DNA from: Alphaproteobacteria bacterium
Lineage (GTDB): Bacteria; Pseudomonadota; Alphaproteobacteria; UBA7887
DNA: 64,000 bases
Assembly: GCA_030739735.1 (NCBI GenBank)
Contig: JASLYQ010000003.1
Span: 62,001-126,000 of the forward strand
Reading direction: 5' to 3'
Shown: piece by piece, positions 17,682 to 57,176 of the stretch
Position numbering within the stretch: the first letter of the stretch is position 1
Layout of the letters: each line of letters starts with the position of its first letter
Program-made: the position numbers and the translations under genes
The notes under the pieces: generated by a model
What the model saw: only the letters and a program-made list of their open reading frames with translations
What the model was told of the DNA's origin: nothing
Database searches by the model: none

Positions 17682-19538
17682 GTGTCCGGCGAGCGTAGGT
17701 CCGAGGCATTCAAGCGTGCGGTGGCAAGCACCACGCGGGCTATTGCCGTGGATGGCGAACTCGAAGTCAGCTTCGGCGCCAATGCCGCACGCCTCGACGG
17801 CGAGCGTGTGCTTCTGAGGGCGCCGTCGCGGGAGCTGAGTTCGGAAGAGATCGGTGGGCTGCGCGGAGAGGCTGATGCGCTGGCGCTGCGCAAACGTCAT
17901 CATAATGCCGCCGTGCACAATTCTAGGCGCCCGCCGGGCCAGGTCGCCCAGGCCATTTACGACGGCTTGGAACAGGCTCGGTGCGAGGCCCTCGGTGCAA
18001 ACAGCATGCGCGGGGTGGCAGATAACCTGGATGCGGCGGTGGCCAGCCGCTGTGAGAATTTGCGCCTCGACCAGATAGTACACAAGGACGATGCGCCGAT
18101 CCACGAGGTGATCACGCTATTGGTGCGCGAAAAGCTCATAGGTATCGCACCACCGGAGAGCGCGCAGCGCGTCTGCAACCTCTGGCGGCCCTGGCTGGAC
18201 GAGCGCGCGGCAGAAGACTTCGACGCCCTCTCCGGCCAGTTGCGCGACCAGGAGGGCTACGCCAAGCGCATGCGTAAGCTCATTGCCCATCTCGAGTTTG
18301 CCGATGAGGCTGAAAATGATCCGTCAAGCATGGAGGCTGATTCCGGCGATGATGATGCCGACGATCAGGATGCCGAGGCGCAGGGGGAGGGCGAGGGCTC
18401 GGACCAGCCCGTCGAGATGGAAGGTACGGCCGGTGAGGACGCGGACGATTCCGATGCGGATGACATTGCTGAGGTGGAAATTGAGGGCGTCGATGAGGCT
18501 AGCATGGACGGCGATGACGAGGCGCCTGCTGACGGCGAGCCCTGGCGTCCGCCATACGATCAGTCGAACCGGCGTTTGCCGCCTTATCATGCCTTTGTCG
18601 AAGAATTTGACGAGGTGGTTGAGGCGGGTGAGCTCAGCGAGCCGGACGAGCTAACGCGCCTGCGTGGGCACCTCGACCAGCAGCTTTCCAGCATGCAGGG
18701 TGTCATCACGCGGCTGGCCAACCGTTTGCAGCGGCGCCTGATGGCCAAGCAATTACGCTCTTGGGAATTTGATCTGGACGAGGGCATCCTCGATACGGCG
18801 CGCCTTGCGCGCGTCGTTACTAGTCCGACTTATCCGCTTTCCTACAAGCAGGAGAAAGAGACCACCTTCCGTGATACGGTGGTCACGCTGTTGATCGATA
18901 ACTCAGGTTCCATGCGGGGGCGGCCGATATCGGTGGCGGCGATGAGCACAGATATTCTGGCCCGCACGCTGGAGCGCTGTGCGGTGAAGGTCGAGATCCT
19001 CGGCTTCACGACACGTGCTTGGAAGGGCGGGTGCGCACGCGAGAAATGGCTGGCAGACGGTAAGCCGTCAAATCCGGGCCGCCTCAACGAATTGCGGCAC
19101 ATCGTCTATAAGGCCGCCGACACGCCATGGCGGCGGGCGCGCAAGAATCTGGGGTTGATGCTGCGGGAAGGCCTGCTCAAGGAGAACATCGACGGCGAGG
19201 CGCTGCTCTGGGCCCACCAGCGTCTGCTAGTGCGGCACGAGCAGCGGCGCATCCTGATGGTTATATCGGACGGCGCGCCGGTCGACGATTCAACGCTATC
19301 GGTGAATGCGGGAAACTATCTCGACCGCCATCTGCGCGAGGTTATCCAGTGGATCGAGGTGGCATCGCCCGTGGAGCTGTTGGCAATCGGTATCGGTCAC
19401 GACGTCACCCGCTACTATCGCCGGGCGGTGACCATCGTCGACGCCGAGCAGCTCGGTGGTGCTATGACCGACAAACTAGCGGAGCTGTTCGATGAAGAGC
19501 CGGACAGCATCGAGACCGCCTTCCACAGTGTGGCCTAG
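17682..19538 (+). CDS. cobT: Cobaltochelatase subunit CobT
   Basis: 618 residues from a GTG. Order: N-terminal helical CobT domain (about 1-205), a very acidic linker of Asp/Glu repeats (about 210-290), and a C-terminal VWA domain with the MIDAS motif [11 protein letters not shown] (about 404-414). It forms a two-tiered ring with CobS that drives CobN. The linker's low complexity is normal for the family. Co-transcribed with cobS; its end overlaps the next frame. Confidence 0.95.
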
Positions 19539-20466
19539 GACGGTGATTCTGGTCGCGCTGCTGGCTCTGCCGGTGGCGGCCGAGCCCATCGATGTTCGCT
19601 CACATACCATTTCCCTGACCCAGGGTGTCCAGGTCAAGGCCCGACTCGACGGACTGGTCTATCGCGGCGGCCTCGAGCTGACGTCCTCCGACACGCGCTT
19701 CGGCGGCTTGTCTGGTCTCGTGGTGTCGGATGACGGAGGGCACCTGCTTGCCATCAGCGACATCGGGCTGTGGCTCGAAGCGAGCCTGCATTATGACGAC
19801 GAGGGCAATCTGTCGGGTGTGAGCAATGCCGAGGTCGCACCCCTACGGGCCGCCAGCGGGGCGGTCTTGCGCGGCAAGCGCGACGCCGATGCTGAGGCAC
19901 TGACCGCGCTTGCCGATGGTAGCTACTTGGTCTCCTTTGAGCGTCGCCACAGAGTGCTCCGCTATGCCGCGCCCGGGGCTGACGGCATAGCGGTCTGGAT
20001 GCCGGAGGCGCTGGCGTCGGTGGATGGCAATGGCGGGCTCGAAGCTTTGGTTCCATTGGGTGACGGGCGCCTGCTGGCACTTTGCGAGGACGAATTCGTC
20101 AGCGCTGGCAGGCTTGCCGGCTGGCGCATCGATGGCGAGAAAGCCGAGCCGGTAACCTGGCCCGGAGACGGCTATTTCAAGCCGACTGCCGCCAGCCGTC
20201 TGCCGGATGGCCGCGTGCTTGTGCTGGAGCGCGGCTACACCGCCTTCGCCGGCCCTAAGGGCCGCCTGATGCTCATTGAGAATGTGGCCGAAACGGCCCT
20301 AAGCCGCCGTGAGATTGCGCGCCTCCAGCCGCCCATCCAGGTCGACAATTACGAAGGGTTGGCAAGCCTCACCATGGCCGGGGAAACGCGGCTGTTCATT
20401 ATCAGTGACGATAACTTCAACCCCCTGCAACGCACGTTGCTGCTGAGCTTCGCGCTTCCGGATTAG
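19528..20466 (+). CDS. Exported esterase-like/phytase-like beta-propeller protein
   Basis: About 312 residues if the GTG at 19528 is used; an ATG at 19492 would overlap cobT by 47 bases. A signal peptide ([16 protein letters not shown]) leads into a beta-propeller of the esterase-like activity of phytase family, with [25 protein letters not shown] near the N-terminus, [11 protein letters not shown], and [10 protein letters not shown]...[10 protein letters not shown] near the end. It is probably periplasmic; substrate unknown. It follows cobT in many related genomes without a known B12 role. Confidence 0.75.
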
Positions 20467-20473
20467 ACGGCGA

Positions 20474-20590
20474 CTTGTCCGGCCAGGCCGGCGCGGTGCG
20501 CCACGGCATCAGTTGGGCGCTGATCCGGGCGGCCGCTGCTCAAGCAGGGCGGCTTCCTGACGCGCGATACAGTGTCCGGCGGCGGCTTGC
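20474..20590 (+). pseudogene. Displaced fragment of rpsI (ribosomal protein S9)
   Basis: Bases 20474-20568 match the intact rpsI at about 56998-57106. The first 54 bases differ at only about 4 positions, giving [13 protein letters not shown] as in S9. A 14-base deletion then removes the codons around YEPAL, and the match resumes through CTCAAGCAGGGCGGCTT. Immediately after, 20569-20590 resembles the rpsI stretch that normally lies just upstream (GTGTCCGGCGGCGG). It looks like a rearranged partial copy. It cannot make S9. Its antisense strand encodes the C-terminus of the next gene. Confidence 0.85.
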
Positions 20591-21105
20591 CATTGTGGCA
20601 GCCGACGCATTAGGGCGCGGTAGGGCAGTAGCAGGAGCGCGGCCATGGCTAGCTTGGCGACGTAGTCGCCAACGGCCCAGGTGACCCAGGGCAGGCCCGT
20701 GGCCGCGAAGGCGAGGGCAAAGAAGAGCAGCGTGTCGACGGCCGAGGCGATCAGCGATGAGGCCAGCGGCGCGCGCCACCATTTGAGTTGCCGCATACGG
20801 TGGAAAATCACCACGTCGAACAGCTGTGCCACCAGGAACGCCGTGCCGGAGGCGACGGCGATGCGTGGCGTGCTGGCGATGATCGACAGCACTACGGCGA
20901 GCAAAAAGCCGACTAAGATCACTTGGCGCGCCCGCGCCGGCCCGAAGGCACGATTCGATAAATCCGTGACCAGGAAAGCGAAGGGGTAGGTGAAGGCTCC
21001 CCAGGTTAGCCAGTCGTTGATAGGGAACTGGACGGCGATGTTCGAGACCACGACGACAGCGATCATCGCCGCCACGGGCAGTGCCAACTGTCGCCAAATC
21101 GGCAA
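20509..21105 (-). CDS. VUT-family queuosine precursor transporter (YhhQ-like) with a rewritten C-terminus
   Basis: 198 residues from a TTG (in-frame ATG at 21066 as alternative). It is an inner-membrane protein with about six helices and family motifs NDWLTWGAFTYPFAFLVTDL, GTAFLVAQLFDVVIFHRMR and DTLLFFALAF. YhhQ-type proteins import queuine or preQ bases. Tgt and QueA encoded at 30-32 kb support this role. The last 25 or so residues (IARQEAALLEQRPPGSAPN) are read antisense from the rpsI fragment, so the native tail has been replaced. The transport core appears intact. Its start is 9 bases after the rpmB stop, so the two may be co-transcribed. Confidence 0.82.
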   Translation of the reverse strand: MPIWRQLALPVAAMIAVVVVSNIAVQFPINDWLTWGAFTYPFAFLVTDLSNRAFGPARARQVILVGFLLAVVLSIIASTPRIAVASGTAFLVAQLFDVVIFHRMRQLKWWRAPLASSLIASAVDTLLFFALAFAATGLPWVTWAVGDYVAKLAMAALLLLPYRALMRRLPQWQAAAGHCIARQEAALLEQRPPGSAPN

Positions 21106-21113
21106 GGGAGAGC

Positions 21114-21404
21114 TTATTCGGCCTGCGCGGCCGCCTTGGCGATGCGGTTTTTGAGCCGTCGGCCGAACGCGGTCAGCTCGTTGGTGCGCGCCTTAGCCAG
21201 GTAGGCATCGAGCCCGCCGCGGTGCTCCACCGTGCGCAAGGTGGCCGCGGCCACGCGCATGCGCACCGTCCGCCCCAAGGCGTCGCTATAGAGCGAGCAG
21301 GGCTGCAAATTGACCTGGTAGTGGCGCGGATTGCGGTTGTGCGCGTGACTTACATGCATGCCGCGCAAAGCACCGGTCCCTGACAATTGACAGCGTCGGG
21401 CCAT
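21114..21404 (-). CDS. rpmB: 50S ribosomal protein L28
   Basis: 96 residues from the ATG at 21404: MARRCQLSGTGALRG, then the SHAHNRNPRHYQVNLQ segment, SDALGRTVRMRVAAATLRTVEHRGGLDAYLAKA, and a basic tail. The alphaproteobacterial form has an SHANNKTKRRFLPNLQ-like segment, so this copy is somewhat divergent in the first loop but has the usual length. It is the only L28 visible here; another copy elsewhere cannot be excluded. Confidence 0.9.
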   Translation of the reverse strand: MARRCQLSGTGALRGMHVSHAHNRNPRHYQVNLQPCSLYSDALGRTVRMRVAAATLRTVEHRGGLDAYLAKARTNELTAFGRRLKNRIAKAAAQAE

Positions 21405-21630
21405 CCTCAACCCCTGCAAATGTTACACCAAAGCTCCGGCAAGGTGCTGGAGAGCGCCGGTTTTATGCTACCGTCGCTGCTGCCGTCAAGAGGTGCGGTC
21501 GGTCTCATTGTGGCTCACACAGGGCAGGCGAGGTCTCTCCTCCTCAATTGGGTCTTCTCGAGGGTAGGGCTGCGCCGCCCGCCGGTAATCTCTCTCGCGT
21601 GATCGTCGCTACAGTTGCTAGTATTACGAC
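21405..21630. promoter_or_regulatory. Divergent intergenic region between rpmB and the adenosyltransferase gene
   Basis: 226 bases that must hold promoters for rpmB (minus) and pduO-type cobO (plus). I searched it for a B12-box-like cobalamin riboswitch core and do not see one. No confident sigma-70 hexamer pair stands out, and the plus-strand gene has no strong Shine-Dalgarno sequence before its ATG. Confidence 0.3.
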
Positions 21631-56645: not shown

Positions 56646-57176
56646 ATGGCCGACGAAAAACGCACCCTCGATGATTTGAAGGACATGGTGGAAGGCGCTG
56701 CCGCCCAGGCTGAGGGCGGCAACGATGGATCTGTCGTCGCGCCGCTAGCGCCTGAGGAAATCGCCGTAGAGCAGCCGGAAATCGATTCTCTCGGCCGCGC
56801 CTATGCCACGGGCAAGCGCAAGAACGCGGTTGCCCGCGTTTGGATTAAACCGGGTAGCGGCCGAGTGATGGTGAATGGCCGCGACCAGGAGGTCTACTTT
56901 GCCCGTCCCGTGCTACGCATGATCCTGCGCCAGCCTTTCGAGGCGGCGGATCGCAACAACCAATACGATGCGGTCTGCACGGTGTCCGGCGGCGGTTTGT
57001 CTGGCCAGGCCGGCGCGGTGCGCCACGGCATCAGCCGGGCGCTCATCCGGTACGAGCCGGCGCTGCGGCCGGTGCTCAAGCAGGGTGGCTTTCTAACGCG
57101 CGATTCTCGCGTCGTGGAGCGCAAGAAGTACGGCAAGCCGAAAGCGCGCAAGAGCTTCCAGTTCTCTAAGCGCTGA
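56646..57176 (+). CDS. rpsI: 30S ribosomal protein S9
   Basis: 176 residues, longer than E. coli S9 because of an acidic N-terminal extension of about 45 residues ([11 protein letters not shown]), common in alphaproteobacteria. The core [33 protein letters not shown], and the basic tail ending in [11 protein letters not shown], which reaches the ribosomal P site, are intact. A partial copy of its 3' half is found at 20474-20590. A strong terminator follows. Confidence 0.98.

Follow-up and report, generated by a model that had tools for sequence, protein, structure and literature searches.

A rearranged rpsI fragment at the predicted C-terminus of a YhhQ-type transporter gene in an alphaproteobacterial genome

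The analysed window is a 64,000-nucleotide stretch of alphaproteobacterial DNA, in which two convergent genes meet at a short, rearranged partial copy of the ribosomal protein gene rpsI. The nearest relative with this locus is a genome of the same family that provides the best match to the transporter gene (G002); all of the comparison genomes lie outside the genus. The features of the locus, in window coordinates, are as follows.

19492–20466, plus strand: convergent neighbour encoding a phytase-like esterase-domain protein (PF13449), whose stop codon adjoins the insert; the same neighbour is present in G002
20458–20586, no strand: stretch lacking homology to G002, spanning 129 nt in the window and about 46 nt in G002 (alignment of the syntenic loci)
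20468–20528, plus strand: rpsI-derived block A, corresponding to 56990–57050 (55/61 identical, E 4e-17, BLASTN against the window)
20529–20568, plus strand: rpsI-derived block B, corresponding to 57065–57104 (36/40 in the gapped alignment)
20569–20589, plus strand: rpsI-derived block C, corresponding to 56979–56999 (19/21, E 0.16 taken alone, BLASTN)
20509–21105, minus strand: predicted queuosine-precursor (preQ0/preQ1) transporter of the YhhQ/COG1738 type (PF02592, E 1e-25; TIGR00697 above cut-off)
21114–21419, minus strand: rpmB, encoding ribosomal protein L28, immediately upstream of the transporter gene (PF00830, E 2.6e-18)
56646–57176, plus strand: intact rpsI, encoding 30S ribosomal protein S9, the homologue of the fragment (NF001099, E 4e-60, above cut-off)

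The minus-strand gene is predicted from its profile matches to encode a YhhQ-type preQ0/preQ1 transporter. Its product scores 91.3 bits with PF02592 (cut-off 27.2) and 94.5 with TIGR00697 (cut-off 50.95), which places it in the family, and falls below the cut-off of the narrower PRK11212 equivalog (110.6 vs 252). The reading frame runs into the rpsI copy on the opposite strand, as the original prediction had stated: the last ~24 codons (20512–20586) are antisense to the copy, the frame is open throughout it, and the stop at 20509 lies inside it.

The gapped alignment matches window positions 20468–20568 to rpsI 56990–57104 with 91 of 101 bases identical and one deletion, that of the 14 rpsI bases 57051–57064 between blocks A and B. 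The ungapped core of block B (20537–20568, corresponding to rpsI 57073–57104) is identical at 29 of 32 positions (E 6e-6, BLASTN against the window). Pairwise alignment thus bears out the earlier reading of an rpsI match with a 14-base deletion but shifts its limits, the copy starting at about 20468 instead of 20474 and the matching stretch of the intact gene ending at 57104; the count of about four mismatches in the first 54 bases is corrected to six in the first 61. The view that the copy is rearranged holds, as the source of block C (20569–20589) precedes and overlaps that of block A in the intact gene, so that the copy is permuted in the order A-B-C. The gapped alignment of A and B together scores 134, compared with 41 for the best of approximately 20,000 random 126-mers drawn from a 565-kb portion of this genome and aligned against rpsI. 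A match to rpsI of the quality of block C was found for one of 49,897 random 24-mers, and its position adjoining A and B is not due to chance.

No rpsI-like sequence other than this copy and rpsI itself is present in the 2.64-Mb genome. A mobile repeat was rejected on this single-copy status and on the lack of a palindromic or unusually stable fold. The copy has no Rfam match, terminator or promoter and its fold is ordinary, with z-scores of -0.31 on the plus strand and 1.11 on the minus strand; an RNA element or terminator was rejected on these grounds.

Self-comparison of a ~565-kb sample of the genome returned 46 self-matches at E values up to 1e-3. Eleven of these were inspected and only one other clear gene scrap was identified, at C1:10777–10978, and a genome-wide scrap phenomenon was rejected on these figures. 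This second scrap, 204 bp long and frameshifted, duplicates with 90% identity the beginning of the gene at C1:11253–12374, which lies about 1.3 kb away; the differences between the two show no clear codon-position bias. The same contig contains two intergenic inverted repeats, one of 137 bp at 73% (C1:11059–11195) and one of 60 bp at 93% (C1:103329–103388), which are possibly MITE-like or strong hairpins. A 117-bp match of 80% joins C1:45136–45252 and C2:79558–79674, both of which encode the end of a similar protein, and one of the two may be degraded.

The G002 genome carries the same gene pair in the same arrangement and has no rpsI piece at this site; its transporter ends in LPVWQPNSAANA followed directly by the stop codon. 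Homology to G002 halts at 20587 and restarts at 20457, and rpsI-derived DNA makes up nearly the whole of the 129-nt interval between. The fragment is thus a partial gene copy at a site that is empty of it in G002, as expected of an inserted gene scrap. No clean microhomology is apparent at the junctions, with a possible TTG on the transporter side and a possible CGGCG on the other. An assembly or binning artefact, in which the scrap would be a chimera of the metagenome assembly, is suggested by the draft state of the genome (69 contigs) and by the presence of the insertion in one genome only. However, 12 base differences, a deletion and a permutation separate the copy from the genome's rpsI. 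The copy is flanked on both sides by the gene ends of a syntenic pair within a contig of 184,580 bp, and the contamination estimate is 0.15%. An artefact of this kind is highly doubtful, and the 12 substitutions and the permutation, within a gene pair shared with G002, make it very unlikely that the copy is simply rpsI duplicated during assembly.

Among the 60 transporter homologues listed, nearly all end within a few residues of the end point of the G002 protein, and the rare exceptions carry unrelated sequence. The ~24-residue tail is absent from every one of these 60 homologues. Because the homologues end near the G002 end point and none carries the tail, the last ~24 residues of the predicted transporter are new and lineage-specific as judged from sequence comparison, in line with the comparison of C-termini that the original prediction had proposed.

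Identity of the scrap is 90% with the rpsI of its own genome, 78% with the G002 gene and no more than 83% with the others examined. Nine of the 12 differences from its own rpsI fall at third codon positions (P ~0.004) and all nine are synonymous; counted by site, the figure is 8 of 11 (P ~0.009). In the frameshifted comparison scrap at C1:10777–10978, 9 of 19 differences fall at third positions, the split over codon positions 1, 2 and 3 being 7/3/9. The synonymous excess in the rpsI scrap and the lack of such a bias in the other indicate that the divergence arose in a working rpsI. From these sequences, the donor was probably either the allele of a related strain or the native rpsI, which would have changed later. 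The copy has the base of most relatives at sites 57086, 57092, 57095 and probably 57002, which makes the genome's own rpsI the changed one at these positions. A base C at the position of rpsI 56996 is common to blocks A and C and occurs in none of 12 rpsI genes, which ties the two blocks to one donor. The copy has few changes of its own, namely 56995, 57035, 57036 and perhaps 57072 (three or four in ~120 bases), and more would be expected in a neutral scrap whose age matched the synonymous divergence (rough Poisson estimates of P from 0.02 to 1e-5, dependent on the assumptions made). This scarcity implies that the donor had already diverged, that the native rpsI has been exchanged or changed since, or that the copy is constrained.

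The synonymous excess would also fit a formerly working second copy, with the scrap as what survives of a complete second rpsI, or of a longer segment gained by horizontal transfer, once present at the site. Such an origin is improbable: no further rpsI piece lies nearby, the blocks are permuted, and the insert takes up almost all of the space between the two gene ends.

The likely explanation of the locus is a single event of illegitimate insertion or replacement, which changed the C-terminus of the transporter incidentally, with a slightly diverged working rpsI as donor and a neutral tail as outcome. A short rpsI piece of approximately 126 bp (source 56979–57104) would have been inserted at the junction of the two convergent genes, or swapped there for ~46 bp, by illegitimate recombination or a template-switch event. 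The A-B-C order and the overlapping ends would follow from a head-to-tail intermediate, either tandem or circular, that was opened at a point inside the piece. The insertion would have removed the stop codon of the transporter gene, and the next in-frame stop, supplied by the antisense strand of the insert, would have added the ~24 residues. Ku, ComEC and DprA had no match in the whole genome (98.8% complete); the control genomes responded, and DprA and ComEC were found in most of them. Neither competence-driven uptake nor classical NHEJ is evident as a route on this basis, and because the three proteins were not found, template switching or other illegitimate recombination is tentatively favoured over them. 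A literature search on the recombination mechanism returned nothing direct.

The original prediction had described the fragment as recycled into the C-terminus, which stands as a description of the reading frame and not as a claim of useful function, as the tail occurs in no homologue inspected and neither a terminator, an RNA structure, a second copy nor a repeat family was detected. AlphaFold2 predicts a helical core for the transporter with high confidence and a helix at residues 169–190, in the tail, with moderate confidence (block means 68–77), a region to which no homologues contribute. This helix, the frame that remains open through the scrap and the apparently small change in the copy since insertion would each fit an exapted tail, in which the residues read antisense from rpsI would be maintained by selection as a functional C-terminus in the cytoplasm. 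Against this, the tail is known from a single genome, the structural core is already complete in its absence, and a recent insertion from a diverged donor explains the few copy-specific changes equally well; conservation among relatives, the mark of an exapted tail, was not found among the homologues inspected, all from outside the genus. Functional recycling is unsupported by these comparisons, and selection for the tail seems very unlikely.

The 3' end of the rpmB-yhhQ transcript, as predicted from sequence, would be complementary to ~100 nt of rpsI mRNA. It is extremely improbable that this end regulates ribosomal protein S9 in trans as an antisense RNA and that the rpsI-derived sequence has been retained for this role. 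Most likely the scrap does nothing beyond lengthening the protein; it is commonplace genomic debris that so far shows no sign of a function. The insertion raises no new question about transporters or ribosomal proteins, and its value is as a clear small example of a chance gene-scrap insertion that alters the end of a protein through loss of its stop codon. In addition, the pattern of synonymous differences suggests that scraps of this kind can preserve a source-gene allele since lost from the genome.

Segments exchanged in the Acinetobacter events reported in PNAS are reportedly usually shorter than the ~120 bp found here. The replacement of chromosomal DNA by short heterologous segments in Acinetobacter (Harms et al. 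2016, 10.1073/pnas.1615819114, in the reference list of PMC8116780) resembles the present case in that a short unrelated segment from the same or a related genome reportedly takes over a short chromosomal stretch. In contrast, the scrap here is ~120 bp long and permuted, and lies in a genome without detectable ComEC or DprA. The Rickettsia palindromic elements (RPEs), which form repeated palindromic families, also occur as insertions in reading frames (PMC3767692), and the likeness lies in 100–150 bp of inserted DNA joining a protein-coding frame in an alphaproteobacterium, whereas the scrap here is a single-copy piece of a known gene with no unusual fold. Along its conserved length the transporter gene belongs with the YhhQ/COG1738 queuosine-precursor transporters (PMC5372724), from which it differs in its extra, lineage-specific C-terminus of ~24 residues.
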